64,000 nt of DNA from positions 186,001-250,000 of the forward strand of contig JAOSJV010000010.1 of the NCBI GenBank assembly GCA_027493935.1, in the 5' to 3' direction. Shown here piece by piece: positions 9,502 to 28,616 of the stretch. The notes below the pieces were generated by a model. It did no database searches. It saw only the letters and a program-made list of their open reading frames with translations, and was not told where the DNA came from. Positions within the stretch are counted from its first letter, which is position 1; every line of letters starts with the position of its first letter. A program made the translations under genes and the position numbers. The DNA is from Burkholderiales bacterium (GTDB taxonomy: Bacteria > Pseudomonadota > Gammaproteobacteria > Burkholderiales > SG8-39).

Positions 9502-10272
9502 CTAGATTCCGGCTGCCCGCTCCGTCTCTTTCCACGGCGCGAGCTTCCGTTCGATGTACTTGATTAACTCGACGAACCCCACGCCGAGCAGCGATACAAC
9601 GATGATCGGTACGAACATCTTCGCGGTCTCGAAGAAGTTGCCATACTTGACGATCATGCCGCCGAGCCCAACGATCGACGTAAAGAACTCGGCGACGATC
9701 ATCGCCAGAACCGCGCGGCCGACCGCGAGGCGCAGTCCGGTCATGATGAACGGCAGCGCCGCGGGCAGCACCACCTTCCAGAAGATCTGGCGCTCGCTTG
9801 CGCCGAAGGCGGCGCCGATGTCGATCACCGACTGGCTAAGGTTCTTCACGCCACTGAAGGTGTTGATAATCACGATGAACACCGAAAGGGTGAAGATGAT
9901 GATCACCTTCGAGACGAGCCCGACGCCGAACCAGAGAATGAACAGTGGGATGAGCGCGATCGAGGGCGTCGAGTACAGCGCGTTCACGTAGGGCTCGAGC
10001 ATCCACTCCACCATGCGGATCCGGCCCATCGCCACGCCTATGGCAATGCCGATGCCGATGGCGAAGGTCACGCCAAGCGAGAAGCTGAGCAGGCTGTTCG
10101 CGATCGCGGCGGGCAACTCGCCCGAGAGCATCAGGTCGACGAAAGCGACCGCGATCCCCGACGGGGAGGACAGGAACAGCGGATTCACGTAGTTTCCGGC
10201 GATCTCCCAGGCGCCGAGCACGAGCACCAGGGTGACGGCCTTGACGACGAACGGCTTGCCTGCGCGTTTCAT
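9502..10272 (-). CDS. ABC transporter permease, SsuC/TauC-like
   Basis: A 256-residue inner-membrane permease with about six hydrophobic helices and the EAA loop [29 protein letters not shown]. It belongs to the BPD_transp_1 family of taurine/nitrate/sulfonate/pyrimidine-precursor (NMT1) importers. Its ATG overlaps the stop of the ATPase gene by four bases, and the matching binding protein lies two genes upstream, so the importer is complete: SBP (11.1-12.1 kb), ATPase, permease. Confidence 0.92.
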
Positions 10273-11058
10273 CGGTCGTAGGCCCCTCTCAGCAGCTTCG
10301 CGATGTGCAGCCTGAGTTGCACGAACTCGGGTCGTGCGCGGAACTCCTCCGGATTCTCCCAGCGCGGATGCGGCAACCGGACGTCCACGGTCTCTAGGAT
10401 GCGCGAGGGCCGGCGCGTGAACACGATCACGCGATCGGCGAGGTACACCGCCTCCTCAATGCTGTGCGTCACGAAGACCATCGTCTTCTTTTCCCGGTTC
10501 TGGATGCGCAACAGCTCCGCCTGCATGGTCTCGCGTGTCTGCGCATCGAGCGCGGCGAACGGTTCGTCGAGCAGCAGTACGCGCGGGTCGATCGCGAGCG
10601 CGCGCGCGAGGCCCACGCGCTGCTGCATCCCGCCAGAGAGCTCGTGTGGATGGTGGTGCTCCGAAGCCCTTGAGGCCGACCATTTCGATGTAGCCCCCCG
10701 CGAGCTCGGCACGCCGCTCGCGCGGAACGCTGCGGATCTCCAGCCCGAACTCGACGTTCGCCTGCACCGAGCGCCAGGGCAACAGGCCGAAGTTCTGGAA
10801 CACGAAGCCACAGTCGCGCCGCGGACCCTCGACCGGGTTGTGGTCGATGAGCACCCGGCCGCCTGTCGGCGCGAGCAGGCCCTGCACGACGCGCAGAAAA
10901 GTGGTCTTGCCCGCGCCGCTCGGTCCCACGATCACGCAGAACTCCGACTCCGCGATGCCGAAGTTGAGGTCCTGCAGCACCTCGATGGTGTGCGCGGCGC
11001 CGTCGCCAGCGCCGCGCGTGAAACTAACCGAAAGGTTCTCGACATCAATCAACGCCAT
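10269..11058 (-). CDS. ABC transporter ATP-binding protein, SsuB/TauB-like (one frameshift)
   Basis: A ~262-residue ATPase. [16 protein letters not shown] is followed by Walker [15 protein letters not shown]-loop [25 protein letters not shown] signature [15 protein letters not shown], Walker [13 protein letters not shown] and the switch His in [18 protein letters not shown]. The two parts are in different frames; GLKGFGAP in one frame becomes [16 protein letters not shown] if one base near 10661 is removed, so a single insertion explains it. Start at the ATG at 11058. It powers uptake together with the neighbouring permease and NMT1-type binding protein. Confidence 0.9.
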
Positions 11059-11072
11059 GACCGGGACCGTGT

Positions 11073-12065
11073 TCAACGCGGCGGGTAGTCGCGCTGGCCG
11101 ATCGGCGCGATGGCCTTTTCGGTCACCTCCGGCATGGTAAGCTTCGAGAGGTCGACCGACTTGCTCTGTGTCTTCGTCTTGAGGCCAAGATCCTGCATGT
11201 ATGCGAGACGCTTAGGATCGATCTCGCCGTTGATCGCCCAGACGCGCGCCTTTATGTAGCCGTCATAGATCGTGCCGAGGTCCTTGGCGTTGGTCGGCAG
11301 GTGCTTGCCGGCGGCGGCGACGAACTCCGCCTTGTTGTCGTAGGCCCCGCGCGTCGCCTTCACGAGCGCACGCTGCCAGCGCTCCAGCGCGTCGCGCTTG
11401 GCGGGCAACGTGTCGGCCCACACCGCGAGACCTTGCGCCATGTAAAGCGGCAGCTCCTGCGAGACGATCATCAGCCGGTGCAGGTTAGGATCGGCCTCGA
11501 CCGTCGGGCTGAACTCGCCCAGCGTCGCGTCGATCTTTCCAGCGATGAGCGACTTGAGGCGCGCCCCGGTACCGCCGACGGAGAGCATCTTCACTGGGTC
11601 CGGATCGAGCCCCTGACGGTCGAGCAGCGCGAGGATCACCACGTGAGGCAGGCCGCCGATACCGGAGATGCCGAAGCTGCGGCCGGAAAGATCCTTGAGA
11701 CTCTTGATGTCCTTCTTTGCGTACAGCGCAAAGTGCAGCCCCTGGCAATGGGTACCGATCACCGTGAGGTCCGCGCCGTTGCCCACAGCGCCCAGGACGA
11801 GCGCAGTCTCGACGTCGGAGACGTCGACCGCGCGCGCAAGCAGCGCGCGCATATTGATCGAACCGCTCTCGAAGTGCTGATTCTCGACCTTGACGCCTTC
11901 GCGCTCGAAGTAGCCGTTTTCCGCGGCGATGCGGTGCACAACCGTGAACATCGAGATCGACGGCAGACCGACCTTGAGCGTCGGCGTCTGCGCGCCGGCG
12001 CTGCCGGCGGCCAACGCCGCAATTACGGCCGGGATGGCTTTCGTGAAGATGTTTCGCAGCCTCAT
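11073..12065 (-). CDS. ABC transporter substrate-binding protein (NMT1/THI5-SsuA type)
   Basis: A 330-residue exported protein: signal peptide MRLRNIFTKAIPAVIAALAA ending ..GSAGAQ, then TPTLKVGLPSISMFTVVHRIAAENGYFEREGVKV, the NMT1-like periplasmic fold. FGISGIGGLPHVVILALLDRQGLDPDPVKML continues the family pattern. It would bind the imported substrate in the periplasm. It stands 14 bases upstream of the ATPase gene and 51 bases downstream of the CMD-like gene, inside the catabolic operon, so it likely imports the compound the operon degrades. Confidence 0.9.
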   Translation of the reverse strand: MRLRNIFTKAIPAVIAALAAGSAGAQTPTLKVGLPSISMFTVVHRIAAENGYFEREGVKVENQHFESGSINMRALLARAVDVSDVETALVLGAVGNGADLTVIGTHCQGLHFALYAKKDIKSLKDLSGRSFGISGIGGLPHVVILALLDRQGLDPDPVKMLSVGGTGARLKSLIAGKIDATLGEFSPTVEADPNLHRLMIVSQELPLYMAQGLAVWADTLPAKRDALERWQRALVKATRGAYDNKAEFVAAAGKHLPTNAKDLGTIYDGYIKARVWAINGEIDPKRLAYMQDLGLKTKTQSKSVDLSKLTMPEVTEKAIAPIGQRDYPPR

Positions 12066-12116: not shown

Positions 12117-12533
12117 CTACTTTCTCCGCCTTGCGGCCGGGCCTCGCGCTCTTGCGTGGGACGAGCGCTTCGCCATCTCCTCGGCGAGGATGGGCACTGC
12201 AAGGTTGACCGAGTGGATACCCATCACGGTGGTGAGCTGGATCACCTCGAGGAGCTCCTCACGCGTCGCGCCCAAGCGCAGCGCGTTCTGCATGTGCCGC
12301 CGCACGCCGGGCGCGTAGAGGTGCGTCGTCGCCGCGTTGATCGCGATCATGATGAACTCCTTCACCTTCTGCGTCAGATGGCGCTTGCGGTGCGGCACGC
12401 TGCGGAACGCGAGATATACCTCGATGAACTCCGGATCCCATTGCCGCATCGTGTCCCACAGCGGGTTCCAGTCGCCCGAGCGGATCTGCTGGTCGGTGTA
12501 GGGCGTCTTCGAGACGCGTCTCTTCGCAGACAT
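12117..12533 (-). CDS. Carboxymuconolactone decarboxylase (CMD/AhpD)-family protein
   Basis: A 138-residue protein with the CMD fold: LTQKVKEFIMIAINAATTHLYAPGVRRHMQNALRLGATREELLEVIQLTTVMGIHSVN. The AhpD-type CxxC pair is absent; the equivalent segment has TTHLYAPGVRRH, so it is not a peroxidase partner but belongs to the gamma-carboxymuconolactone-decarboxylase-like branch often found in aromatic-acid operons. A very basic tail (RARGPAARRRK) ends it. It lies between the GMC oxidoreductase and the ABC importer. The reaction cannot be assigned from sequence. Confidence 0.85.
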   Translation of the reverse strand: MSAKRRVSKTPYTDQQIRSGDWNPLWDTMRQWDPEFIEVYLAFRSVPHRKRHLTQKVKEFIMIAINAATTHLYAPGVRRHMQNALRLGATREELLEVIQLTTVMGIHSVNLAVPILAEEMAKRSSHARARGPAARRRK

Positions 12534-12551: not shown

Positions 12552-14183
12552 CTATGCGCGCGCGTCGGCGAGCACGAGGTCGGCGCCGCGCTCGCCGATC
12601 ATCATGGCGGGCGCGTTAGTGTTGGACGACGCGATCGTCAGCATGATCGAGGCGTCGATCACGCGCAACCCCGCCACGCCGTGCACGCGCAGTCGCGCGT
12701 CGACTACCGAGTCCTCCGCGCGTCCCATGCGGCAGCTGCCCACGGCATGCCACGCGGTCTGCCCGGTCGCGCGAGCGTACTCGAGTAGCTCGGCGTCGCT
12801 CGCGACAGCGGGTCCGGGGCGGTGCTCGGTGACGATGAATCGCTTCAGCGAGGGCTGGGCGGCGATGCGCCGGATGAGGCGCAGCAGCGCGACGGCGTCG
12901 GCCTGGTCGGTAGGATCCGAGAGATAGTTCGGCTGGATGCTCGGCGCTTCGAAAGGATCCGGGGAACGAGCGTGGATCGAGCCGCGCGAGCGCGGCCGCA
13001 GCTTGAAGCCGCCGATCGAGAATCCGGAGAAGGGATCTATGCCCGCCTCGGCCGAGCGTGAATAGCGGTCCTTTCCGCTGATGTGGTAGATCCGCACCAT
13101 CACGTTCGGGCAGCCGTCGTCGCCCTCGGCCGCCGTGCGGGTGATCGCATGCGCCGTCGAGGACGTTCCCGCCATCAGCCCTCTTCGCGTCGCGAGGTAC
13201 TGCAGCCCGACGCGAAGGCGGCGCAGCCTGCTGCGAAGGATGTCGTTGATCGTGATCGGGAGCGTGGTCTCGTACATGTTGCGAACCTGGACGTGGTCGA
13301 TCACGTTCTCGCCTACTGCGCGCAGGTGTGCCACGACCGCGATGCCGATACGCCGCAGAAGCTCGCCGTCGCCGACGCCGGAGAGCTCCAGCAGTTGCGG
13401 CGACTGGACCGTGCCTGCGCAAAGGAGCACCTCCCGCCTCGCCCGCACCCGGCGCGTTGCGCCGCCCGCGCGGAATTCCACCCCGACCGCCCGCAGCCCC
13501 TCGAAGAGCACGCGCGTCGCCACAGAGTGCGTCTGCGAGCAAAGGTTCGCGCGCCGGCGCGCGCCGCGCAGGTAGGCGACCGCAGTGCTGCAGCGCCGGC
13601 CGTTATGCGCCGTCTGCTCGAGATAACGCACGCCCTCGTAGCGCACCGCGTTGTAGTCCAGGGTTTCGTCGATTCCGGCTTCGATGCACGCTCGCACAAA
13701 ACCATCGGAGAGCGCGTCGCGGTCACGGCGCTTGCGGTCGGTGATCTTCACCGGCCCGCCTTGCCCCCACTGCGTGTCGTCGCTGTAGGGGTTGTCCTCC
13801 AGGCGCTTGAAGTAAGGGTGGACGTCGCGGAATCCCCAGCCAGCGCACCCGCTCGCGCGCCAGCCGTCGTACTCGGCGGGATCGCCCCAGACATATGCCA
13901 TGCCGTTCAGCGCACTCGAGCCGCCGAGCACCTTTCCGCGCGGCCAGTAGATCTTCTGTCGGTGCATGCTGGCCTGTTGCTCGGTCTCGAACCTCCACGC
14001 GTAGCGCTCGTGGGTGAGCAGCTTTCCCACGCCGAGCGGAACGTGGATCCACAGATTACGGTCCTCGCCGCCCGCCTCGATGAGAAGCACGCTGTGCCGC
14101 CGGCTCTCGGTGAGGCGCGCAGCAAGCGCACATCCGGCCGACCCCGTCCCTACGACGACAAAATCGTGCGCTGACAGTTCCAC
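12552..14183 (-). CDS. GMC-family FAD-dependent oxidoreductase (choline dehydrogenase-like)
   Basis: A 543-residue flavoprotein. The Rossmann motif is VVVGTGSAGCALAARLTE; GMC signature 1 is PRGKVLGGSSALNGMAYVWG and signature 2 is GTVQSPQLLELSGVG. The catalytic His is in TAWHAVGSCRMG and the second polar residue in SSNTNAPAMMIGE. GMC enzymes oxidise alcohols such as choline, alkanols or hydroxymethyl aromatics. It ends 18 bases before the CMD-like gene and begins two bases after the TPP-enzyme stop, so it is tightly coupled within the operon. It probably oxidises an alcohol intermediate of the pathway; the exact substrate is not readable. Confidence 0.92.
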   Translation of the reverse strand: MELSAHDFVVVGTGSAGCALAARLTESRRHSVLLIEAGGEDRNLWIHVPLGVGKLLTHERYAWRFETEQQASMHRQKIYWPRGKVLGGSSALNGMAYVWGDPAEYDGWRASGCAGWGFRDVHPYFKRLEDNPYSDDTQWGQGGPVKITDRKRRDRDALSDGFVRACIEAGIDETLDYNAVRYEGVRYLEQTAHNGRRCSTAVAYLRGARRRANLCSQTHSVATRVLFEGLRAVGVEFRAGGATRRVRARREVLLCAGTVQSPQLLELSGVGDGELLRRIGIAVVAHLRAVGENVIDHVQVRNMYETTLPITINDILRSRLRRLRVGLQYLATRRGLMAGTSSTAHAITRTAAEGDDGCPNVMVRIYHISGKDRYSRSAEAGIDPFSGFSIGGFKLRPRSRGSIHARSPDPFEAPSIQPNYLSDPTDQADAVALLRLIRRIAAQPSLKRFIVTEHRPGPAVASDAELLEYARATGQTAWHAVGSCRMGRAEDSVVDARLRVHGVAGLRVIDASIMLTIASSNTNAPAMMIGERGADLVLADARA

Positions 14184-14185
14184 TG

Positions 14186-15880
14186 CTACTTGCCGCGCTG
14201 CGCCCGGTGCTTGAAGGAATCGCGCCGGAAGCTATAGAGCGCGTCCGGGTCGACCTTGACCTCGACGATTGCAGGTTTGCCGCAGACGAGCGCTTCGGCC
14301 ACGACGCCTTCAATGTCCGCCGCACGCTCCACGGCGAAGCCGGCCGCGCCGAAGAGCTGCGCCACCTTGTCATAGGGTGGGTTCGGCACATCCGCGCCGA
14401 GGTAGCGGCCGTCGAAGAAATCGCGCTGGTACGCTTTCTCGGCACCCCAGCAGCCATTGTTCATCACGATGCAGACGGTGTTTATGCCGTGCGAGACCGC
14501 GGTTCCGATCTCACCCAGCGTCATGCCGAACCCACCGTCGCCCATCAGGCTCACGACGGTGCGCTCCGGGCAGGCGAGCTTCACGCCGAGGCCGCACGCA
14601 TAGGAGAAACCCACGAGCCCGAAGTCGAGCGGGGTAAAGAGCGCCGGCGGCTGCTGGTAATTGAGCACGTCGGTTGCCTGGAGACAGAGGGTGCCCGCGT
14701 CCATGGTCAACATCGCGTCGGGCGGCAGCACACCGCGCAGTGCCTTGTACAGAGTAGCGGGCTGGATCGGCTCCGCCAGCTTTTCGCCGTCGCGGTCGCG
14801 CTGCGCGAGCAGCGCTCGGCGCTTCTCCTGGAATTCCCGGGCCCAGGCGCTCGCCGCGCCTGGTACGTGCCCGGCCAGCGCGCACGCAAGCTGGTCGGCG
14901 ATGGTTCCCGCGTCGCCGCAGATGCCGACGGCCACAGGGAAGTACCTGCCGATCGCGGTCGGCTCGATCTCCACGTGGATGATGCGCGCCGCCACGTTCA
15001 GGTTTTCGTACGAGTAGAACGTCGTGTTGAAGCCAAGACGCGTTCCAAGTGCGAGGATCACGTCGGCCTCGCGCGCCAAAGTCGAGGCGACGACGTTGCC
15101 TCGTGGGCCCACCTGGCCCGCGTAAAGCGGATGGCTGCAGGGAATGGCGTCGCCGTGACCGGGTGAGAGTGCGACCGGCGCGCTAAGCAGTTCGGCGAGC
15201 TTTAGGGCCTGCGCGTGGGAGCGGCCGTTCTTCACGCCGCCCCCAGCGATGATGAGCGGCTTCTTGGCGTCCTTGAGGAGGCTCGCTGCGCGCTCGATTA
15301 GATCCTGGGCGCCGGCAACGCTGCCGGAAAAACCACGCTCGCCGGGCGCGCCGTCCGGCTCGAACTCGGCCGAGTCCGCCAGGAGATCGCGAGGCATGTT
15401 GAGCACGACCGGGCCACGCCGCGGCGTGAGCGCCACGCGGAAAGCTTCCCGCATCATTTCTGGCACGCGCTTGGTCTGCGTGAGGGTCCAGCTTTTCTTG
15501 GTTACAGGCGCGAACACCGCTTGCTGGTTGACTTCCTGGAACGCGTCCCGGTAGACGTGCTCCGAGGACAACGACCCGGCGAGGGCGATCACCGGCGAGT
15601 AGGCGGCGTTCGCCTGTGACAGCCCCGTGAGCAGGTTTGTGGCGCCGGGACCGTTCTGGCCCGCGATGATGATGCCGGCCTTACCGCTCGCGCGGGCATA
15701 GCCGTCCGCCATATGCGTGCCAGTGCGTTCGTCGCGCACGCCAATGAAGTGCACTTCCTTCGCGTCGTACAACGCATCAAAGATCTCCATACCCGCCGAC
15801 CCGATGAGGCCGAACACGTGGCTCGTGCCCTCAGCACGCAGCGCGTCAACCACCGCCTTGCCGCCGGTCATAATCGTCAT
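14186..15880 (-). CDS. TPP-dependent enzyme of the acetolactate synthase / sulfoacetaldehyde acetyltransferase (Xsc)-like group
   Basis: A 564-residue three-domain thiamine-diphosphate enzyme. The N-terminal domain has the cofactor-activating Glu in VRDERTGTHMADGYARASGK and AGQNGPGATNLLTG. The C-terminal domain has the TPP motif SLMGDGGFGMTLGEIG..MNNGCWGAEK. The segments GLIGSAGMEIFDAL, FQEVNQQAVFAPVTKKSW and GAEKAYQRDFFDGRYLGAD resemble Xsc rather than IlvB. Xsc converts sulfoacetaldehyde plus phosphate to acetyl phosphate; an IlvB-like or C-C lyase role is also possible. I start it at ATG 15880, which overlaps the upstream UbiD stop by four bases, not at the longer ORF start. Confidence 0.88.
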   Translation of the reverse strand: MTIMTGGKAVVDALRAEGTSHVFGLIGSAGMEIFDALYDAKEVHFIGVRDERTGTHMADGYARASGKAGIIIAGQNGPGATNLLTGLSQANAAYSPVIALAGSLSSEHVYRDAFQEVNQQAVFAPVTKKSWTLTQTKRVPEMMREAFRVALTPRRGPVVLNMPRDLLADSAEFEPDGAPGERGFSGSVAGAQDLIERAASLLKDAKKPLIIAGGGVKNGRSHAQALKLAELLSAPVALSPGHGDAIPCSHPLYAGQVGPRGNVVASTLAREADVILALGTRLGFNTTFYSYENLNVAARIIHVEIEPTAIGRYFPVAVGICGDAGTIADQLACALAGHVPGAASAWAREFQEKRRALLAQRDRDGEKLAEPIQPATLYKALRGVLPPDAMLTMDAGTLCLQATDVLNYQQPPALFTPLDFGLVGFSYACGLGVKLACPERTVVSLMGDGGFGMTLGEIGTAVSHGINTVCIVMNNGCWGAEKAYQRDFFDGRYLGADVPNPPYDKVAQLFGAAGFAVERAADIEGVVAEALVCGKPAIVEVKVDPDALYSFRRDSFKHRAQRGK

Positions 15881-17280
15881 TGTGCTTCTCCTCGTTCTGC
15901 TGCCGCCCGCGCCGCAAGTAGCTTGTCGAGCTGCACCCGCACCCGGTCGAGCACTTCCCTCGGCGGCATTGACACCACGCCACGGAAGTGCGCTTTCTTG
16001 GTCGCATCGATGAACAGCTTGGAGGTGATGGCGAACTCGTAGCTCGAAGGATCGATCGGTCCCCCTCCCGTCTCCGGCACAATGAACACGTCTCGCCCGG
16101 GGTCCACACGGGTGGAAACCGCCCACAGCACGTCGTTGGTTCGAAAGATGTCGATGTCGTCGTCGACTGCGACCACGTACTTCAGCCTCGGCATGAGGTA
16201 GGTCGTCGCAAGGAGGAGGTTGCGCACAGTGCCCGGGCGGCGCAGCTTCGGATTGATCTGAACGATGCCCCAGAAATCGCGGGCCAAGTCGGCGGGACGC
16301 GTCACCCCCGTAACGAGCGGAAAGCGTTTCTGCAGTGCGTCGAGCGCCAGTGCATCTTCCAACTCGCGCCAGAACACGACGTTCTCGTTGGGCGGCTTAC
16401 CAGCGAACGCAAGGTGCATCACTGGCTTCGCGCGCGTAGTGATCGCGGTGACGCGCCAGATTGGCGCCTTGCGCCTTTCGCTCTGGTACCCGGTAAACTC
16501 GTTGAACGGGCCTTCCTCGTCCATCTCGCCGGTGTACTGAGTCTCGATGACAATCTCGGCGTCGGCCGGTATTTCGAGATCGATGGTCTCAGCCTTGACT
16601 ACGCGTAGAGGCGTACCGCGCAGCGCGCCAGCTACATCGACCTCGTAGTCGCTCACGGGGAAATCCGAGCCCGCGGCCAAGTAAAGCAACGGATCAACGC
16701 CAAGCACGATCGCCATCGGACACCCCTCGCCTATGTCCTCATAGAACAGGCGCTGGTGGTGGTCCGGAGCGATCTGCGCGAAGATTTCGTTGCGACTGCG
16801 GTACATGTTGCGGTAGATGCCCGCGTTCTTGCCCCAGACGGGGTGGGCACCCATGTTGATGCCGGCCGAGACGTAGCGCCCGCCGTCACCGACGTTCCAG
16901 AACGGGATGGGAAGCTCGTCCAAATTCACCTGATCGCCGCGTTTCACCACCTGCTTACACGGGGCGCTCTTCGCATCCACGCTCACCGGTGCGAGCCTTC
17001 GCCTCAGCCGCTCGACGATCGCACTCGCCATCTGATGTGGCTCTACACCGAGCGCCATGGCGATGCGCTTGCGCGTGCCAAAGAGGTTGGCGAGCGCGGA
17101 CATCCGATAGCCCTTGATGCGTTCAAAAAACAGCGCCGGCCCGTCGTCATCGGCTACGTGCCGGCACCAAGCGCAGATCTCGTACTCCGAATCGACCGGC
17201 TCGGGCACGCGAAGCAACTCGCCCATCTCATCTAGCTTCGCGATGAAATCCCTAAACGGATCCGTGCCGGTGTGCGGCAT
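15877..17280 (-). CDS. UbiD-family decarboxylase (copy 2)
   Basis: A 467-residue intact protein: MPHTGTDPFRDFIAKLDEMGELLRV, then LANLFGTRKRIAMALGV, the active-site region GEMDEEGPFNEFTGYQSE and VVAVDDDIDIFRTNDVLWAVSTR near the C-terminus, all in UbiD order. In the usual EGPFGxxxGYY motif Gly is replaced by Asn (GPFNEFTGYQ). It overlaps the TPP-enzyme gene by four bases, suggesting linked production, and perhaps that its product feeds that enzyme. prFMN would have to come from a ubiX elsewhere in the genome. Confidence 0.9.
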   Translation of the reverse strand: MPHTGTDPFRDFIAKLDEMGELLRVPEPVDSEYEICAWCRHVADDDGPALFFERIKGYRMSALANLFGTRKRIAMALGVEPHQMASAIVERLRRRLAPVSVDAKSAPCKQVVKRGDQVNLDELPIPFWNVGDGGRYVSAGINMGAHPVWGKNAGIYRNMYRSRNEIFAQIAPDHHQRLFYEDIGEGCPMAIVLGVDPLLYLAAGSDFPVSDYEVDVAGALRGTPLRVVKAETIDLEIPADAEIVIETQYTGEMDEEGPFNEFTGYQSERRKAPIWRVTAITTRAKPVMHLAFAGKPPNENVVFWRELEDALALDALQKRFPLVTGVTRPADLARDFWGIVQINPKLRRPGTVRNLLLATTYLMPRLKYVVAVDDDIDIFRTNDVLWAVSTRVDPGRDVFIVPETGGGPIDPSSYEFAITSKLFIDATKKAHFRGVVSMPPREVLDRVRVQLDKLLAARAAAERGEAQ

Positions 17281-17302
17281 GGTCGCACTCTCAGCAGTCA
17301 GC

Positions 17303-18505
17303 TCACTTGAACTGCTGTTGCGCTGAGAAGTCGTTCATAATGCGCGACTCCACCACCTTCGGGTAGCGCAGCGGCGGCGGCGTGTTGCGGCTGCGCCCGA
17401 CAAACCGTGGCACACCAGCGGTGAAGACGCCGACCAGCGACCAGACGTCGCCGTGCTTGATCGCCTCAAGACAGGTCTTCCTAGAGCCGCCCATCGGCGC
17501 GTCAACCAGAAGCACGTCGCCGTCCTTGCCTTCGCGCAGGAACCCGTTGTTCAGCTTGTAGACTTTGGCTACGTTCCCAGTCGCCGCAGCGATCATCCAC
17601 TCCGGCGGGAATTTGGAGAGCGTCGACATCTCGGTCACCGACTTGATCATCCCGAGCGGCATCATGCCGGTGCCAGTGGGCGTGTCGGTGGCAATCAGGA
17701 ATCGGTCGAAGCAGTCGTTCTCCACGGCCAAGTTCAGGCACATCAGCGCCGTGCGGATGTTGCCGGCCTGGCAAATCTGAAGCGCGATATCGCTCTCCTT
17801 CACCACGCGCTCAAAGTCCTCGTCGGGCATGGCGATCGGCCCGCCATTTACGTGATACGAGACGTCTGCGCCCATAGCAATCAGGTGCTCGCCGTGGATG
17901 GAATTCGCGAGCGAGATCGACGCACCGCCGGTGTGCACTTGCACGGTCATGCCCGCCTTCTTGGCCGCCTTGACGAGCGGGACGTAGTCGAACGGGGTCT
18001 TGACCGCCCCGAATCCGGCCTTCGCCAGCCACACCGTGTTGCGCCTCATATCCTCGAAGTCGCTTTCCTCCAGGCACGGCTCGAGAATCACCGCACCTCC
18101 ATGCACGCGCATGCCGCCTGGTCTGAAGTTGTCCCAGCTCTTCTTTGCAGCCACCGCGAGCGCCTTGACGCCCTCGCGGTCCTTCGGCCGACCGGGGACG
18201 TGAATCTCGCTCGCAGAGATCGACGTCGTCGTTCCCCCGTGAACGTAGCTCTCGAGGAAGCCCACCGCCTGTTGTTTGGGCGTGTAGTCGCCAAATGCGA
18301 TGTGCACCTGCGAGTCGATCAACCCTGGACAGGCGGTCGTGCCTTTCGCGTCGACGACGAAATCGCAGGCCTGCACCTCATCGGCCGACGCGCTGCCTAC
18401 GCGCTTGATGACCCCATCCTCCATGAGGATGGTGTCGCCGCGGGCGAACGGGTCACGCCAGTCACCGGTGACGATCGTTGCAATGTTCGTGATGGCGATC
18501 TTCAT
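17303..18505 (-). CDS. Enamidase-like amidohydrolase with QxH instead of HxH
   Basis: A 400-residue amidohydrolase. Its closest recognisable relative is enamidase of anaerobic nicotinate degradation, which opens 6-oxo-tetrahydronicotinate: shared features include FGDYTPKQQ, HGGTTTSIS, PGRPKD, HGGAVILE, VKTPFDY (Lys), VQVHTGG (His), SYHVNGGP (His), IATDTPTGTGMMPLG (Asp) and KSRNTPP near the end (here RSRNTPP). The usual metal motif DxHxH reads DSQVHIA, so the first His is Gln. This could mean a single-metal site, as in some other amidohydrolases, or changed activity. It suggests a cyclic amide/enamide intermediate in the pathway. Confidence 0.85.
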   Translation of the reverse strand: MKIAITNIATIVTGDWRDPFARGDTILMEDGVIKRVGSASADEVQACDFVVDAKGTTACPGLIDSQVHIAFGDYTPKQQAVGFLESYVHGGTTTSISASEIHVPGRPKDREGVKALAVAAKKSWDNFRPGGMRVHGGAVILEPCLEESDFEDMRRNTVWLAKAGFGAVKTPFDYVPLVKAAKKAGMTVQVHTGGASISLANSIHGEHLIAMGADVSYHVNGGPIAMPDEDFERVVKESDIALQICQAGNIRTALMCLNLAVENDCFDRFLIATDTPTGTGMMPLGMIKSVTEMSTLSKFPPEWMIAAATGNVAKVYKLNNGFLREGKDGDVLLVDAPMGGSRKTCLEAIKHGDVWSLVGVFTAGVPRFVGRSRNTPPPLRYPKVVESRIMNDFSAQQQFK

Positions 18506-18532
18506 GTTTCCTCCTCCGACCTCGAACTATCG

Positions 18533-19105
18533 TCAGCGCAAGCCGTCCTGACCGATCATCTTGTCAACGCTGTGCCCGCCGATGCGATGGTTGAGCCTGC
18601 CGCGGTTGGCGAAGCAGCAGATGATGGCGATCTCCCCAGGCATGGGCGCGTCTGGCAGCGTGACTGTCATCGCGTCGTAGTGCGAGCGTATGGTGAGCGC
18701 GTCCTTGTGCGCTAACGGAATGTCGATCGACGTGCCCGGAAGCGCGCGCTTCGCCATATGGCAGATCCAAGCCTTGCCGCCCCCGGCGGCCTCGCGCATC
18801 GTGTCGCCGAGCAGCGTGGTTAGCACCGCCTCGGCGTGCTCGACTTCCCCTTCGATCCCGACCAGGGCACCCTTTCCGTAGCTCTCGATCCGGTAGGGCT
18901 GGATCAGTTCGGCGGCGATCGCGCCGATGTGGCGTCCGACCTTTGCGCTGCCTTCGATGAGCACCGAAAGATCCTCCACGTACCGCCCGGCAGCGGGGTT
19001 AGCGCACACCGCCGCGACCGCCACCCTGCGCAGCGGAAGATCCGCCCTACGTCCGGCCTCCAGGAACAGCTCTTCAGTGGCCGTGACGATCTTTCGAATC
19101 TCCAT
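18533..19105 (-). CDS. Amino acid synthesis family protein (PF06684-type)
   Basis: A 190-residue soluble protein, MEIRKIVTATEELFLEAGRRADLPLRRVAVAAVCANPAAGRYVEDLSVLIE, matching the family named amino acid synthesis proteins, whose biochemical role is not established. KALPG-like RALPGTSIDIPLAHKDALTIRSHYDAMTV is also typical. Such genes are often found beside amidohydrolases and ABC importers for nitrogenous or aromatic compounds. It sits 28 bases upstream of the enamidase-like gene and 64 bases downstream of the MarR gene. I do not assign a reaction. Confidence 0.8.
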   Translation of the reverse strand: MEIRKIVTATEELFLEAGRRADLPLRRVAVAAVCANPAAGRYVEDLSVLIEGSAKVGRHIGAIAAELIQPYRIESYGKGALVGIEGEVEHAEAVLTTLLGDTMREAAGGGKAWICHMAKRALPGTSIDIPLAHKDALTIRSHYDAMTVTLPDAPMPGEIAIICCFANRGRLNHRIGGHSVDKMIGQDGLR

Positions 19106-19168
19106 GGAGCGGCCCTTCCCCGTGTACTTCGGATACCGAGACTCGCTCGCTTCAGTGCGGAGGTGCGC

Positions 19169-19825
19169 TCATGCTGGCTCGCCGACGCGGGCAGCAGGAG
19201 CATCTTCGCTCGACCCTTCGTCCATGCCGTGTGCCCGCAGGTAGCTCTGCAGGGCAAGGGCTCGCTCGCCGCTCTGCACCAGCCGCTCGACCAGCGGTAC
19301 CAATTGCAGGAACTCGGCCCGGCTCAGGCAGCCGAACTGGACGTCGTTCACCTGCCGGCGCAGGGCTGCAATGCTGTCGATCAGCGCGACCGCCTTGGGC
19401 GTCAAACTGAGCGACACGGTTCTTCGATCATCGGTGCCGCGCTCCTTGAACACTAGACCGCCTTGCTCGAGCGTCTTGGTCTCGACCGTGACGTAAGAGC
19501 TGCTCAAGCGCAGATGGTCCGCCACCGTCCTAATGTTCACCGAGCCCCTGGCGCACAGGTTGCGGATGCACAGCAGAATCGTGTATTGCTGACCCGTCAC
19601 GTCAAGGAGCGATGCATAGCCGTCGCGAATCGCGACATGAATTGACAAGAAAGTCAGCAGCCGCTGAACCAGCAGCCGGAACTGGGCGTCGCCTCGGTCG
19701 ACCAGCAGTTCTTCTCTCGACACCGTAAGCGGCGCCTTGGCCGGTCCCGCGGTCGCCGTCGCCGTGGCGCGCGAGGCTTTCGCGCGCTTGCGGCCCGGTG
19801 ATGCCCTTCCAGCCTTTCTCTGCAT
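19169..19825 (-). CDS. MarR-family transcriptional regulator
   Basis: A ~218-residue regulator with a basic Ala/Lys/Arg N-terminal extension of ~35 residues and a MarR winged helix: YTILLCIRNLCARGSVNIRTVADHLRLSSSYVTVETKTLEQGGLVFKERGTDDRRTVSLSLTPKA (helix-turn-helix, wing). I choose ATG 19825 because the upstream ATG at 19837 lies inside the predicted -10 hexamer; GGAG six bases upstream of 19825 acts as ribosome site. It heads the 11-gene catabolic run and its promoter resembles that of the cox-like operon, so it is the likely regulator of both, probably responding to a pathway aromatic or amide ligand. Confidence 0.88.
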   Translation of the reverse strand: MQRKAGRASPGRKRAKASRATATATAGPAKAPLTVSREELLVDRGDAQFRLLVQRLLTFLSIHVAIRDGYASLLDVTGQQYTILLCIRNLCARGSVNIRTVADHLRLSSSYVTVETKTLEQGGLVFKERGTDDRRTVSLSLTPKAVALIDSIAALRRQVNDVQFGCLSRAEFLQLVPLVERLVQSGERALALQSYLRAHGMDEGSSEDAPAARVGEPA

Positions 19826-19835
19826 AAGTCGCTCC

Positions 19836-19864
19836 ATGTTAGCTAGTAAAAATAGGTTTGTCGA
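19836..19864 (-). promoter_or_regulatory. Sigma70-type promoter / shared operator of the marR-headed operon
   Basis: On the minus strand TCGACA (-35, 19864-19859) and TAACAT (-10, 19841-19836) are 17 bases apart, with spacer AACCTATTTTTACTAGC. The first five spacer bases and the TTT..CTA core match the cox-like promoter at 8.07 kb. The predicted transcript start leaves only a few bases before ATG 19825, so the mRNA would be almost leaderless. Confidence 0.65.
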
Positions 19865-20319
19865 TTAGTTTTTAAGTTGATGCACCCTGGTAGTGCCTTT
19901 TCCAAACAATCGAGCAGCGGCGCAAGACGTCCATGGGCGGCCCGCCGAGCGACGGGCGCTTGTAGTCGAATTGAACGCCTGGGTCGGGAAGGCCGGGTCG
20001 AGTCCGATCTCACCGGCCGGAAACACGTAGCATTTTGCACCGCGCAATCGCCCCAATGAGTCGGCCGGAGCGTGCCGCGAAGCCGCCGGAACCGGTCCCG
20101 ACGCCGATCAGTAGCGTAGGGAGTCAAGTAGCCATACACGCTAAGGAACTATCGCTATATATGTGGGCACTCAGACCAAATTGAACGGCCAGTTGCTGGC
20201 CTGAATAGATCGATGCCCGAGCCGCGCTCCACGCGGGGAGAAGAATTGCGCAAGAGAACGGCGTTCCAGGTCCGTGGGAGTCGGTTCTCTGCAAGGCGAG
20301 TCAGCGTGTCTGGAGACCT
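19865..20319. other. Intergenic stretch without a supported gene
   Basis: About 455 bases between the MarR promoter and the 3' end of the DMT transporter. Base composition is lower in GC near both ends. ORFs here are short shadows with no recognisable family and no convincing ribosome site. Nothing else is seen. Confidence 0.5.
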
Positions 20320-21296: not shown

Positions 21297-22390
21297 TTAC
21301 GTAAGTACATGACGTTAGATCGGCAACTCGGCCTGCTGCCAGAAGGCTCGGATCAGCGCTGGACGACGCTGCATCGATCTGAGCCGTCGGGTGGCGTAGC
21401 GCTTGACCTGAGCGATGGTGTCCAGGCAGAGGTTGGCGAGCTCGCGCTGTTTGGCGTAGCCGAACAGATATTCGACGGGGTTGAGTTCGGGCGCGTAGGC
21501 GGGCAGGCGCTCCAGGACGATGTCGCCGTCGAGCGAGTCGACGTAGTCGCGGACCAGGCGGCTGCGATGCGCGGGCAGCCCATCCCAGATGATCAGCAGC
21601 TTGCCCTTGATCTGGGCGCGCAAGGCCTTGAGGAATTCGACCAGCTGCGGCCCCTTGATCGCGCCGGGGAAGAAGCGAAAGTAGATGCGCCAGAAGCTCG
21701 CCCCGGCGATCAGCGAGAGCTGCTTCCAGTTGAAGCTGTACTGCAGCGTCGGCGTGCAGCCCTGGGTGCCCAGGTCTTGACCCGTGTCGGGCGCTCGCTC
21801 AGTCCCGATTCGTCGACGAAGACGATGGTTCGTCCCTGGCGTCTGGCGTTTTTTTTAGCGCCGGCCAGCGCTTGGTCTTCCAGCTGCCGATCGCCGCTTC
21901 GTCGCGCTGCAGCGCCCGGCCGGTGGGGCGCTGGCTGGAGAATCCCAGCTCGCGAATGACCCGCCAGACGTGCACGGTGCTGAACGCATGGCCAAATTCG
22001 CGCTTGATCAGCTTGGCGATGCGCGCCAAGGTCCACAGCTCGGTCGCAAAGCCATTGGCCACGGCGCCCGCAATCAACATCTTGGTGAGTCTCGCGCGCT
22101 CGGCCGCGCTCATGGCGCCCCGGCCGACCCAGCGGCCGGCGCCGCCACGCATGGGGATCCTGTGCCAGCAGTCGCACCCAACCCGAGGCTGTTTGCCGAC
22201 TTACCGCGCAAGCGCGCGCCACTTCGGCCTGCGTCACGCCACGCGCCAGCATGCGCATGCCGCGCCGGCGTCGTGCCTCCAGTTCCTTGAAGTCCCGCTT
22301 GTACCGTCTCGTCGCCATGCGCCTCCCTCGAAGTGTCGCCACTTCGATTAACGCGCATCATAGCGAAACGGTTGTCAGGCATTTACGTAA
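21297..22390 (-). mobile_element. IS630-type insertion sequence A (with terminal inverted repeats)
   Basis: The ends carry imperfect inverted repeats: TTACGTAAGTACATGAC at 21297-21313 and, read on the minus strand, TTACGTAAATGCCTGAC at 22390-22374 (14 of 17 identical). They enclose one broken IS630-type transposase gene. Length is ~1.09 kb, normal for the family. IS630 elements duplicate a TA target; the flanks are compatible but I cannot confirm the exact duplication. Confidence 0.8.
21315..22318 (-). pseudogene. IS630-type transposase with several frameshifts
   Basis: Fragments in different frames make one IS630-type transposase: MATRRYKRDFKELEARRRRGMRML..GVTQAEVARACAVSRQTASGW (HTH), AKLIKREFGHAFSTVHVWRVIRELGFSSQRPTGRAL, TIVFVDESGLSERPTRVKTWAP (first catalytic Asp region), a middle part in a third frame, and LLIIWDGLPAHRSRLV...LPAYAPELNPVEYLFGYAKQRELANL (second Asp, and the NPVE region with the final acidic residue). 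At least three frame changes are needed, so as given it cannot make a full protein. Whether this is decay or sequencing error cannot be told here. Confidence 0.85.
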
Positions 22391-22528: not shown

Positions 22529-22618
22529 GGCCGGTCTCCGGCGACGTAGGTTGCGCGGCAGGCCGCGCCGAGCTACATGCTGAGAACGAGTCGTCAGCAA
22601 CCACAATGGAGACCGGCC
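22529..22618 (+). ncRNA. Structured leader of the IS110 element; candidate guide (bridge-type) RNA region
   Basis: GGCCGGTCTCC at 22529-22539 pairs perfectly with GGAGACCGGCC at 22608-22618, ending at the base before the transposase ATG. Inside it, GGTTGC (22549-22554) can pair with GCAACC (22597-22602), and GCGCGG/CCGCGC forms an inner hairpin at 22553-22568. IS110-family elements are known to encode structured guide RNAs in a non-coding end. Assignment as that RNA is inference; it could instead be a stem hiding the transposase start. Confidence 0.45.
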
Positions 22619-23731
22619 ATGGAACAAGGTATCAAAGTTTTCGTTGGACTGGACGTGCATAAGGACTCGATCGCGGTGGCCGTGGCGGAGGTAGGGCGGG
22701 CGCCGGCGCGCCTCGTAGGCACGATCGCGCACGACGTCGGCAAGCTTCGGAAGCTGTTGGCGCGTTTCGGCGATGCGGCGCAGGTTCATGTGGTCTATGA
22801 GGCTGGTCCGACCGGTTATGGACTGCAGCGCGAGCTGGCCCGGCGTGGTTATCGCTGCGAAGTGATCGCCCCGTCGCTGATCCCGCGTCGCCCAGGCGAG
22901 CGCGTCAAGACCGATCGGCGCGACGGCATCCGCTTGGCCGAGCTCTCGCGTGCCGGTGAGTTGCGCGCGGTATGGATTCCCGACCCGGCCGATGAGGCGA
23001 TTCGTGACTTGGCGCGTGCCCGCGAGGACGCGGTCAACGCCCGCACCCAAGCGCGCCACCAGCTCAAGAGCTTCCTGCTCCGCCACGAGGTGCGTTACCC
23101 GCATCGCACGTCGTGGAGCAAGACGTTCTATCGTTGGCTGGCGACGTTGAGCTTTGCCCAGTCCGGCGCGCAGACCGCCTTCACTGAGTACTGGCAAGCC
23201 GTCAGCACAGCAGATGAGCGCGTGGCGCGGCTCACCGCCGCGCTGGGCAGCTCGATCGAAGGCTGGCGCTTCGCCTCGATCGTGCAGGCACTGCAGGCGC
23301 TGCGCGGCATCGACATGATCAGCGCCATTGGCTTGGTGGCCGAGATCGGCGACATCGCGCGCTTCGCCCACCCGCGCCAACTGATGAGCTATCTTGGCTT
23401 GGTGCCGAGCGAGCACTCGAGCGGCGAGCGGGTGGTGCGTGGCAGCATCACCAAGACGGGCAATGCGCACGCGCGTCGGCTGCTCACCGAGGCGGCATGG
23501 AATTACCGCTTTCCTCCGCGTATCGGCTATCAGGCACAGCGCCGGGCGGAAGACTTGCCGCAGGCGATTCGCGACGTGGCCTGGAAGGCGCAGCTGCGAC
23601 TGAGCGCACGCTTCGCGGTACTCAAGGCCAGAGGCGTGCACCTGAACAAGGTCTGCGTGGCCGTGGCGCGCGAGCTGACGGGCTTTGTGTGGGCCATCGC
23701 TTCGACCCAAACCAGGCCTGAGCGCGCTTGA
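22619..23731 (+). CDS. IS110-family transposase
   Basis: A 370-residue intact transposase starting MEQGIKVFVGLDVHKDSIAVAV. The RuvC-like DEDD domain is seen as GLDVHKD, VVYEAGPTGYGLQREL and KTDRRDGIRLAEL; the C-terminal Transposase_20 domain has LQALRGIDMISAIGLVAEIGDIARFAHPRQLMSYLGLVPSEHSSG and the conserved Ser region GSITKTGNAHARRLLTEAAWNYR. Start chosen at ATG 22619, directly after a long inverted repeat; the longer ORF start at 22577 would run through that structure. Its last 306 bases plus the right end of the element are duplicated immediately downstream. Confidence 0.93.
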   Translation: MEQGIKVFVGLDVHKDSIAVAVAEVGRAPARLVGTIAHDVGKLRKLLARFGDAAQVHVVYEAGPTGYGLQRELARRGYRCEVIAPSLIPRRPGERVKTDRRDGIRLAELSRAGELRAVWIPDPADEAIRDLARAREDAVNARTQARHQLKSFLLRHEVRYPHRTSWSKTFYRWLATLSFAQSGAQTAFTEYWQAVSTADERVARLTAALGSSIEGWRFASIVQALQALRGIDMISAIGLVAEIGDIARFAHPRQLMSYLGLVPSEHSSGERVVRGSITKTGNAHARRLLTEAAWNYRFPPRIGYQAQRRAEDLPQAIRDVAWKAQLRLSARFAVLKARGVHLNKVCVAVARELTGFVWAIASTQTRPERA

Positions 23732-24561
23732 ACCAACGTCGATACCACCAGATCGATCCGGTGATGCGGTACGGGCAACGATAGGGAAAACCCTCGAGGA
23801 CACTACCCCGGCATCCCGCAAGGATTGATCCATGACGCTAGAGCGAGGCAGTTCCCGCGACGAATCGGTGAAAGGTGGTAACCAACCCACGGATATGAGT
23901 CTGATTCATCGTCGCTGCAGCGCTCGTGCCGCGTCACCGGATCGATTTGGAATTCGACGAAAAAACGCACTGTTGACAACCTTGCGACCATATGAGCGGG
24001 TGGTGCGTGGCAGCATCACCAAGACGGGTAATGCGCACGCGCGTCGGCTGCTCACCGAGGCGGCATGGAATTACCGCTTTCCTCCGCGTATCGGCTATCA
24101 GGCACAGCGCCGGGCGGAAGACTTGCCGCAGGCGATTCGCGACGTGGCCTGGAAGGCGCAGCTGCGACTGAGCGCACGCTTCGCGGTACTCAAGGCCAGA
24201 GGCGTGCACCTGAACAAGGTCTGCGTGGCCGTGGCGCGCGAGCTGACGGGCTTTGTGTGGGCCATCGCTTCGACCCAAACCAGGCCTGAGCGCGCTTGAA
24301 CCAACGTCGATACCACCAGATCGATCCGGTGATGCGGTACGGGCAACGATAGGGAAAACCCTCGAGGACACTACCCCGGCATCCCGCAAGGATTGATCCA
24401 TGACGCTAGAGCGAGGCAGTTCCCGCGACGAATCGGTGAAAGGTGGTAACCAACCCACGGATATGAGTCTGATTCATCGTCGCTGCAGCGCTCGTGCCGC
24501 GTCACCGGATCGATTTGGAATTCGACGAAAAAACGCACTGTTGACAACCTTGCGACCATAT
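23426..24561 (+). repeat. 568-bp head-to-tail tandem duplication (IS110 3' end)
   Basis: Bases 23426-23993 and 23994-24561 are the same sequence; I see one difference, C at 23461 versus T at 24029. Each unit holds the last 306 bases of the transposase gene and 262 bases of non-coding right end. The junctions share GAG (23426, 23994, 24562), a 3-base microhomology. The near identity points to a recent event or an assembly artefact. Confidence 0.92.
23994..24299 (+). pseudogene. Duplicated C-terminal fragment of the IS110 transposase
   Basis: This second copy of the transposase 3' end encodes ERVVRGSITKTGNAHARRLLTEAAWNYRF... to the normal stop. It lacks the DEDD catalytic domain, so it cannot transpose by itself. 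It is open upstream in frame into the duplicated non-coding part (an ORF from ATG 23832), but that upstream stretch is not family protein. Confidence 0.85.
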
Positions 24562-24578: not shown

Positions 24579-25688
24579 AGTCATGTTAACGCCCGCGGCG
24601 CACGGCCTTGCGAATGATCTCGGCGGGCTTCTTGGTCCACACGAAGGGCGTGGGGTGTTCGTTCCAGTGCTCGATGTAGTCGCGAATGTGCTTGACGAGG
24701 GCCTTCACCGAGACGAAGGAACCGCGGCGCACCGAGTTGCGCGTGAGGATCCCAAACCAAGCTTCGATCATGTTCAGCCACGAGGCACCGGTCGGCGTGA
24801 AGTGAAAGCACACGTTGGGATGGGCGTCGAGCCACTGGCGCACTTGCGGGGTCGAGTGGGTGGAGGAGTTGTCCAGGATCACGTGCAGCTCGCGTCCGCG
24901 GTAGCGCCGGTGCAGCAGTTTGAGGAAGCGCAGGAAGTCCGCCCCGGTGTGCCGTGCGGTGCACTCACCCAGGACCTTGCCGGAGGCGACGTCAAGGGCG
25001 GCATAGAGGCTGGTCAATCCGTGGCGCTGGTAGTCGTGGGTCTGACCCGCCGGCAAATTGGGCCGCAGCGGCAGCAGGGGCTGGGTGCGCTCCAGGGCCT
25101 GGATCTGGGTCTTCTCATCCAGACTGAGCACCACGGCGTTGGTCGGGGGGTGAGGTACAGCCCCACCACGTCGCGGATCTTGGCCTCGGCCTGCGCATCG
25201 GTGGTGAACTTGAAGCTCTCCACCCGATGCGGCTGCAGCGCGTGCGCCTTCCAGATCCGATGCGCGGTCGCGTGAGATACCCCCACCCGCTCGGCGATCT
25301 CGCGCGTGCTCCAGTGAGTCAGCCCCTTCGGCGGGGCTTTGAGCGTCAGCGCGACGATGCGTGCGCTCTTGGCCTGGCTGAGTCGCGGCGGGCGCCCCGA
25401 GCGGGGCCGATCGGCCAGCCCCGCAAGCCCCTCCTCGGCGAAGCGGCGTCGAATGCGGCTCACCTGAATGGGGGTGTAGCCGGTGAGCCGAGCGACCTCA
25501 GTTCCGGCGACCTCATCGGCCATCAGCAGCACCGCTCGCGCCCGACGGCTCACCCCGGCGGGGCAGGAAGCCGAACGCTGCAGCCGCTCGAGTTCCACCC
25601 GATCAGCCGCCGCCAAGACAATCGCTCGCGCGTGGTTGGCCATGGACCTCCCCCCGGAAGTGTACATGGCGACAATATTAACATGACT
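24579..25688 (-). mobile_element. IS630-type insertion sequence B
   Basis: AGTCATGTTAA at 24579-24589 and its inverted copy TTAACATGACT at 25678-25688 bound a ~1.1 kb element with a single transposase gene, a size normal for IS630. The left end overlaps the transposase stop codon. It sits 17 bases past the IS110 duplication. Confidence 0.78.
24586..25643 (-). CDS. IS630-type transposase B (one frameshift)
   Basis: A ~352-residue transposase: MANHARAIVLAAADRVELERLQRSASCPAGVSRRARAVLLMADEVAGTEVARLTGYTPIQVSRIRRRFAEEGLAGLADRPRSGRP (HTH region), then the DDE domain VVLSLDEKTQIQALER, HVILDNSSTHSTPQV and TGASWLNMIEAWFGILTR. The break is in the G run at 25145-25150, where one missing G separates LYLTPPTNA from VVLSLDEKTQ; otherwise the frame is clean, so the enzyme may be intact in the organism. 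It belongs to a different IS630 subgroup than element A. Confidence 0.9.
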
Positions 25689-25710
25689 TACGTTACCAAA
25701 CAGTAAGTAT

Positions 25711-25813
25711 CCCCCGGCAGAGCCGGGGGCCTTAGATTGTGAGCCGCTCAAAGCGGCTGGTTGCAGGTCGCTAACGCGACCCCGGTGTGTGGGCGCCGCC
25801 TGAAGGCGGCGCC
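25711..25813 (+). repeat. Array of four perfect hairpins at the 3' side of the IS200-like tnpA
   Basis: Four stem-loops follow each other: CCCCCGGC-AGA-GCCGGGGG (25711-25729), AGCCGCT-CAA-AGCGGCT (25742-25758), GGTCGC-TAAC-GCGACC (25766-25781) and GGCGCCGCC-TGAA-GGCGGCGCC (25792-25813). The last abuts the tnpA stop codon at 25814. IS200/IS605 ends carry single hairpins recognised by TnpA; the extra stems may act as terminator or insulating structures. Confidence 0.85.
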
Positions 25814-26244
25814 TCAACGCCAGAGGTTCAGCTGATCGATGCGCTTGTCTTCGTCCTCTTGTTGGCGAATGTATTCCCGGATCATCGCCTCGTCGCGTCC
25901 GACCGTCGACACAAAGTACCCCCTGGCCCAGAAGTGCTGCCCGACGAAGTTGCGCTTGCGCTCTCCGTACACCCGCGCCAGGTGAATCGCGCTTTTCCCC
26001 TTGATGTAACCGATCACCTGCGACACCGCGTACTTCGGCGGGATCAAGAGCATCATGTGCACGTAATCGGACATCAGATGCCCTCCTCGACCCGGCTCTG
26101 CTTCTGCTCGGCCAGCCGGCGGAACACCTCTCCCAAATGCCGGCGTAACTCCCCGTACAGCGCCTTGCGCCGATACTTCGGAATAAACACGATGTGGTAT
26201 TTGCACTCCCACTTGCTGTGGCTTAGGCTGTCGTACTCGTCCAT
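25814..26244 (-). CDS. tnpA: IS200/IS605-type Y1 transposase TnpA (frameshift; HUH motif altered)
   Basis: A ~143-residue TnpA: MDEYDSLSHSKWECKYHIVFIPKYRRKALYGELRRHLGEVFRRLAEQKQ, then GHLMSDYVHMMLLIPPKYAVSQVIGYIKGKSAIHLARVYGERKRNFVGQHFWARGYFVSTVGRDEAMIREYIRQQ. A one-base loss near 26085 breaks the frame. The metal-binding HUH motif of relatives (DHVHM) reads DYVHM, so the first His is Tyr; the catalytic Tyr region (EAMIREYIRQQ) is present. If real, the change should abolish or strongly weaken strand cleavage. The gene lies between the flanking hairpins of the element. Confidence 0.85.
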
Positions 26245-27305: not shown

Positions 27306-27791
27306 TCAGCCGCGCATCAGCTCGGCGGCGCGCTGCACGGCGCTCACGATGTTCACGTAGCCAGTGCAGCGGCAGAGGTTGCCCTCGAGCGCGTGCACGA
27401 TCTCCTCCTCGGTCGGCGCAGGGTTCTCGGCGAGGAGCCCTGCCGCGGCCATGATCATGCCCGGCGTGCAGAAGCCGCACTGCAGCGCGTGGCACTCGGT
27501 GAAGGCCTGCTGCACCGGGTGCAGGGCATCGCCGCTTCCCGGCCCTTCGATGCCCGCGAGGCCTTCGATCGTGAGGATCGCGCGGCCGTCGGCCTGCGGC
27601 GCGAGCATCGAGCACGATTTCACCGAGCGCCCATCCAGGTGCACGGTGCAGCAGCCGCACTGGGTCGAGTCGCAGCCGACGTGCGTGCCGGTGAGTCCGA
27701 GCGCATCGCGCAGCGCGTCGACGAGCAGCGTCCGGTCCTCGAGCTCGAGCGCGACCGCCTTGCCGTTCACCGTCATCGCCACCTTCGCCAT
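27306..27791 (-). CDS. 2Fe-2S small subunit of a second Cox-type hydroxylase
   Basis: A 161-residue intact subunit, [29 protein letters not shown], with cluster motifs [24 protein letters not shown] and [12 protein letters not shown], in the normal order and spacing. It carries electrons between the molybdenum and FAD subunits encoded by the two genes upstream. It starts 18 bases after the FAD-subunit stop and is followed, 14 bases on, by the broken dehydrogenase gene. Confidence 0.93.
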
Positions 27792-27809
27792 CGGCTTCCC
27801 TTTAGCGGG

Positions 27810-28604
27810 TCATTGGATCGCCGCCACCGCGCGCCGCGCCATCACACCGGCGAGGTTGGCGCGGTACTCGGCGCTCGCGTGGATGTCGGCGTTCAGGCCG
27901 CTCGCATCCGGCTCGAGGCCGGCGAGCGACCCGGCGTTGAACCGCTTCGCCAGCGCGGCCTCGGCCTCGCGCCAGCGGAACGCCCCGGGACCGGCGCCGG
28001 TGACGGCCACGCGCACGCCGTCGCGATGCTCCGCGACGAAGACACCGGCCATCGCGTAGCCCGATGCCGGGTGCGCGAACTTGCGGTACGCGGCACGCTC
28101 GGGCATGGCGAAGCCGACGCGGAGAACGATCTCGCCCGGCGCGAGCGCGGTCGCGAACATGCCGACCAGAAACTCCGCGGCCGGGATCGTGCGCCGATTT
28201 GTCTCGATCGTGGCATCCAGTGCGAGCACCGCCGCCGGGTAGTCCGCGGCCGGGTCGTTGTTCGCCACCGATCCGCCGAGCGTTCCGGCGTTGCGCACCT
28301 GCGGATCGCCGATGCCGGCGGCGAGCTCGGCGAGCGCGGGAATCGCGCGGCGTACCGCCACCGCGCCAGCGACTTCCGCATGCGTCGTCGCGGCGCCGAC
28401 CGTCAGCCGGCCGTCCTTGCCGTCGATGCCCCGCAGCTCCGCCAGCCGGGCGATGTCGACGACGTGCGACGGCCTCGCGAGGCGCAGCTTGAGGGTCGGG
28501 ATCAGCGTCATGCCGCCCGCGAGCAGCGTCGCCGCGGGGTGCTCGGCGAGCAGGCGCTCGGCTTCGGCGAGGCTCGCAGCGCGGCGGTATACGAGGGGGC
28601 GCAC
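27810..28604 (-). CDS. FAD-binding medium subunit of the second Cox-type hydroxylase
   Basis: A 264-residue intact subunit: MRPLVYRRAASLAEAERLLAEHPAATLLAGGMTLIPTLKLRLARP, FAD-binding TLGGSVANNDPAADYPAAVLALDA and the C-terminal ERAAYRKFAHPASGYAMAGVFVAE. AGGMTL replaces the more common AGGQSL. It is in the order L-M-S, unlike cluster 1, which is M-S-L, so the two clusters are not a simple duplication. Confidence 0.92.
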   Translation of the reverse strand: MRPLVYRRAASLAEAERLLAEHPAATLLAGGMTLIPTLKLRLARPSHVVDIARLAELRGIDGKDGRLTVGAATTHAEVAGAVAVRRAIPALAELAAGIGDPQVRNAGTLGGSVANNDPAADYPAAVLALDATIETNRRTIPAAEFLVGMFATALAPGEIVLRVGFAMPERAAYRKFAHPASGYAMAGVFVAEHRDGVRVAVTGAGPGAFRWREAEAALAKRFNAGSLAGLEPDASGLNADIHASAEYRANLAGVMARRAVAAIQ

Positions 28605-28616
28605 GTCGGGCCTCCC

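Follow-up and report, generated by a model that had tools for sequence, protein, structure and literature searches.

Enzymes of the amidohydrolase superfamily commonly carry an HxH motif after strand β1, although its known members include QxN and other variants. The α metal is held by both histidines of this motif, the β4 Lys or Glu and an Asp, and the β metal by the β4 residue (a Glu in NagA) and two later histidines. Few features of these enzymes are as strongly conserved as HxH, and only a small number of families are known to contain single-metal forms. One precedent is NagA, whose QxN forms bind one metal and HxH forms two, and whose mycobacterial member is active when engineered to QxN, with a 7-fold higher Km, but dead as AxA (PMC6016474); it bears out the remark in the first-pass annotation of the DNA described here that some amidohydrolases with altered HxH motifs use a single metal ion. 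For the dioxygenase KpiC, enamidase is the nearest characterised relative, at 28% identity (PMC7356986). TgnF, a relative from the trigonelline pathway of the PF06684 proteins discussed below, is described in work cited in PMC7913881 as stimulating succinate semialdehyde oxidation.

The window analysed here is a 64,000-nucleotide stretch of a Burkholderiales genome (assembly GCA_027493935.1, contig JAOSJV010000010.1), which encodes a 400-residue enamidase-like amidohydrolase on its minus strand (17303..18505). Enamidase itself opens the ring in nicotinate breakdown. The first-pass annotation had described an intact enamidase-like gene in which an undamaged CAG codon places Gln at the first His of HxH (DSQVHIA), and all of this held. 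The reading frame (18505..17303, minus), taken from the open reading frame list and its translation, opens with ATG and is free of frameshifts, and the motif region reads GLIDSQVHIAF, with Gln66 encoded by CAG (18308..18310, minus) in place of His67 of 2VUN. The superfamily profile PF01979 scored 49.5 bits against a cut-off of 25. In sequence, enamidase 2VUN is the nearest of the solved structures (E 4.6e-95, ~40% identity), the next matches being far weaker, and an AlphaFold model (pLDDT 91.6, pTM 0.93) matched the same entry with TM-scores of 0.92/0.96 and an rmsd of 1.8, all other structures lying far behind; these matches give the model the TIM-barrel fold of the superfamily. A scan of 15000-20200 for promoters and terminators gave no signal above chance.

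Secondary structure assignment with DSSP put Gln66 at the end of β1 (62-67), Lys162 on β4 (160-163), His191 at the end of β5 (187-191), His218 just past β6 (215-217) and Asp274 just past β8 (269-272). These are the canonical ligand positions of the superfamily. The protein thus has the β4 Lys (18020..18022), the β5 and β6 histidines (17933..17935 and 17852..17854) and the post-β8 Asp, presumed general base/acid and α-metal ligand (17684..17686), but QxH in place of HxH after β1, with the second His retained as His68 (18302..18304; all minus). The ligands previously assigned to QVHTGG (His191), YHVNGG (His218) and ATDTPTG (Asp274) were found as stated. The lysine of VKTPFDY was a misassignment: this residue, Lys169, lies between β4 and the next helix of the model, and its column holds K, R, T, P, A, D, E, Q, S or N among 78 relatives. 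The β4 lysine is instead Lys162 of LAKAGFG, aligned with Glu164 of 2VUN, which like the enamidase-type sequences has Glu here (LGEVGLG). The window protein therefore departs from enamidase at two metal-site positions, Gln66 and Lys162.

Relatives were collected at each level from the window's own genome through its family, order and class up to its phylum, and also from a second order, plasmids and GTDB contigs, yielding 78 usable sequences of three types: His66 with Glu162 (n=28, every enamidase-type sequence), His66 with Lys162 (n=26) and Gln66 with Lys162 (n=24). His68, His191, His218 and Asp274 never vary among the 78. All 24 Gln sequences fall within one clade of 41 (support 100/99), drawn from many genomes, whose other 17 members have His; no third residue occurs at column 66. 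A wider draw of 349 genomes from the window's own order added no further members. Lys162, Glu100 and His102 join the four ligands above as invariant across the 41, and about 102 positions in total, the five ligands among them, do not vary in this subfamily (a count made without the Gln sequence L036, which has the same ligands). Gln is encoded by CAG in every case readable by motif search, and dN/dS between Gln members is 0.04-0.12. That Gln might be private to the window genome was rejected, as it occurs in 23 sequences of other genomes. The window enzyme belongs to a Lys-type, PF06684-linked, enamidase-like subfamily with a recurrent metal-site Gln, uncharacterised and separate from the nicotinate enamidases by its β4 Lys for Glu.

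In a tree built with column 66 excluded, well-supported branches force three changes at this position. Since the outgroups carry His, the tree is most simply read with His as ancestral and three separate gains of Gln: one in the lineage of the window, whose sisters L001 and L002 have His (98/92); one in a clade of 21; and one in the pair L073 and L075, which belong to the order of genome G869, Hyphomicrobiales judging from the same-order L074, whose sequence matches exactly that of L066, a plasmid protein of Mariluticola halotolerans. A single Gln clade was rejected by the AU test (p 4e-125, 235.8 log-likelihood units), as was a clade of 22 with L073 and L075 removed (p 6e-4). To the earlier question of whether QxH marks a clade the answer is thus mixed: Gln is fixed in the clade of 21 but arose twice more elsewhere, Gln and His members being interleaved. 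Of the outcome named earlier as refuting, QxH dispersed and confined to dead copies, only the first half applies: it is scattered, but among genes with intact ligands and the low dN/dS given above. Gene conversion from the Gln clade was not favoured; flanking residues stay typical of each lineage (QVHIAF in the window, cf. HVHIAF in L003; QVHNTF in the Gln clade; QVHITF in L073), which favours point changes over recombination. Phe269, at the start of β8 (17699..17701, minus), accompanies Gln in all three origins and is found in 23 of the 24 Gln sequences and 1 of the 17 with His, although with only three independent pairs this coupling falls short of significance. Because the same His-to-Gln swap arose at least three times within the subfamily, position 66 looks like part of a tolerated or tuned metal site, neither an error nor the mark of a dead gene.

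The window enzyme is closest to genes from Xanthobacteraceae, Afipia and Pseudolabrys metagenome-assembled genomes (L001-L003, 68-74%) and only ~60% like its own-family counterparts, and the window genome lies outside the order of these Hyphomicrobiales relatives. Horizontal transfer of the gene is likely, given that its nearest matches at 68-74% are in Hyphomicrobiales while its own family reaches only ~60%.

The gene sits in a minus-strand operon in which it is preceded by a MarR-family regulator (19169..19837) and a PF06684 gene (AA_synth, formerly DUF1185; 18533..19105), its conserved partner, and followed by a UbiD-family decarboxylase (15877..17280), a thiamine pyrophosphate enzyme (listed as 14186..16126, although its Pfam match begins at residue 86, so that translation probably starts near 15880), a GMC-family oxidoreductase (12552..14183), a carboxymuconolactone decarboxylase-like protein (12117..12533) and an ABC transporter with an NMT1/SsuA-type substrate-binding protein (11073..12065). 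The ATPase gene of this transporter (10269-11076, minus) is split over two frames, the N-terminal half in one and the other half in another; either the assembly or the genome itself carries a frameshift here. Further upstream, the translations by eye show molybdenum hydroxylase-like genes of xanthine dehydrogenase type (27306-30756, minus), including a 2Fe-2S subunit (27306-27791) and an FAD-type subunit (27810-28604). Between them and the operon lies a transposase-like gene of 384 residues (22577-24299, plus) followed by a partial second copy of its C-terminal part, which starts from VVRGSITKTGNAHARRLL and has its flanking sequence repeated; broken transposase-like frames noted by eye flank the region (21710-22342 and 24586-25817, minus), as would fit mobile-element traffic close to the operon.

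In most subfamily loci PF06684 is next to the enzyme gene or only a short distance away, and a literature search found no publication on the pair. Other neighbours vary by locus: UbiD, thiamine pyrophosphate and GMC enzymes in the window, monooxygenases or DHDPS-like genes elsewhere. The partners include FAD monooxygenases (nearest solved structures PnpA and HspB), HpaB-type monooxygenases, an L-PSP/RidA-family protein, DHDPS-like proteins, SSADH and GntR or MarR regulators. An FAD monooxygenase is found beside both Gln (L083-L085, L091) and His members (L065, L066, L100), and an HpaB-type monooxygenase likewise (L097 with Gln, L003 with His). The idea that Gln marks a different pathway was accordingly unsupported. 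The first-pass annotation had also suggested that Gln may mean a different reaction or substrate; since genes with Gln and genes with His have neighbours of the same kinds (PF06684, flavin or HpaB monooxygenases, MarR/GntR), interleave on the tree and keep the other ligands, Gln is probably no sign of a new reaction. No nicotinate-pathway gene is present among the annotated genes of the window operon, and 6-hydroxynicotinate reductase was not found in the subfamily neighbourhoods searched, unlike in L072 (1-6167), where two PF06684 genes and a UPF0280 gene lie beside this reductase and a nicotinate-type enamidase. The L072 arrangement suggests that PF06684 acts in pyridine catabolism rather than in amino acid synthesis.

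From this neighbourhood, together with PF06684 relatives such as TgnF, we infer that enamide-type hydrolysis in N-heterocycle catabolism is the most likely role of the subfamily. The enzyme would hydrolyse the C-N bond of an enamide- or lactam-type intermediate formed when an N-heterocyclic or related aromatic acid is degraded. A β-site metal on His191, His218 and Lys162 would polarise the carbonyl and activate water, Asp274 would shuttle the proton, and Gln66, replacing one ligand of the α site, would leave the α metal weak, exchangeable or absent. With its first His replaced the α site should weaken, while the retained His68, Lys162 and Asp274 make a residual or exchangeable α metal possible. 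Our preferred reading, held with moderate confidence, is thus that the window protein is a catalytically competent Lys-type enamide hydrolase of N-heterocycle catabolism with a weakened or lost α site, working mainly through its β metal as E. coli NagA (QxN) does. The conservation of His68, Lys162 and Asp274 counts against this reading, in that a fully abandoned α site would not be expected to require them.

The same conservation, seen in Gln and His members alike, speaks for an enzyme that is still binuclear, with the side-chain oxygen of Gln66 binding the α metal and His and Gln near-equivalent at this position; the β4 Lys could be carbamylated and bridge the two metals, with Gln as a weak α ligand. 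It also fits that the repeated exchange involves no residues other than His and Gln, each of which can donate to a metal or a hydrogen bond. Gln is a poor metal ligand, however, and we regard this alternative as possible but the less probable. The QxN form of NagA is moreover associated with a single-metal site (PMC6016474). A further proposal, which we advance only tentatively, is that a single-base change, for which Phe269 may compensate, has repeatedly switched the subfamily between two-metal (HxH) and one-metal (QxH) forms without altering the reaction.

It is unlikely that the subfamily is non-hydrolytic and cleaves rings with O2 and a single iron in the manner of KpiC: it retains Asp274 and the complete set of hydrolase ligands, and the similarity to 2VUN in sequence and fold favours hydrolase chemistry, even though KpiC is reported as an amidohydrolase-family extradiol dioxygenase (PMC7356986) and several loci carry PnpA/HspB- or HpaB-type aromatic monooxygenases, makers of dihydroxy-arenes or pyridinols. 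That Gln66 arose through a mistake in sequencing or assembly, or reflects a decaying gene, is very improbable despite the frameshift in the nearby ATPase gene and the His of the closest relatives L001-L003, as Gln occupies the same codon in 23 sequences from other genomes (CAG wherever read), every invariant active-site residue is present, dN/dS is low and the window branch is not long (0.20, vs 0.14 for L001 and 0.23 for L002).

The wider interest lies in a single position at which His and Gln interchange, with three independent gains, in active sites that are otherwise nearly the same, so that natural sister enzymes (the window protein or L059 with Gln; L001 or L076 with His) are available for testing directly what the α metal does. 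If switching between HxH and QxH is real, it provides a natural series for testing the purpose of the second metal. The finding also points to a widespread, uncharacterised hydrolase linked with PF06684, a family whose own function is uncertain.

Among known systems, the PF06684 proteins TgnF, HcdD and BB2672 belong to the same family as the gene adjoining the window enzyme, any joint role with an enamidase-like protein being putative. KpiC, the 3,4-dihydroxypyridine dioxygenase of Arthrobacter sp. IN13, is likewise a PF01979 member nearest to enamidase among characterised proteins and acts in pyridine catabolism, but has 475 residues and reported oxygenase activity, and is likened here by its published description (PMC7356986). 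NagA of E. coli and V. cholerae (QxN) is from the same superfamily and likewise belongs to a family with HxH members in which the first residue of the motif is replaced (PMC6016474). The window enzyme agrees with it in the change of that residue to Gln, and differs in having QxH rather than QxN, the second His being invariant, in its β4 Lys where NagA has Glu, in its substrate and in an identity of only 12-14% in the fold match. Closest are the Eubacterium barkeri enamidase (2VUN) and its nicotinate-pathway relatives, with which the window protein shares the fold, ~40% identity, His68, His191, His218, Asp274 and Asp64, and from which its subfamily is set apart by Gln for the first His in the Gln members, a β4 Lys for Glu and a clade of its own.
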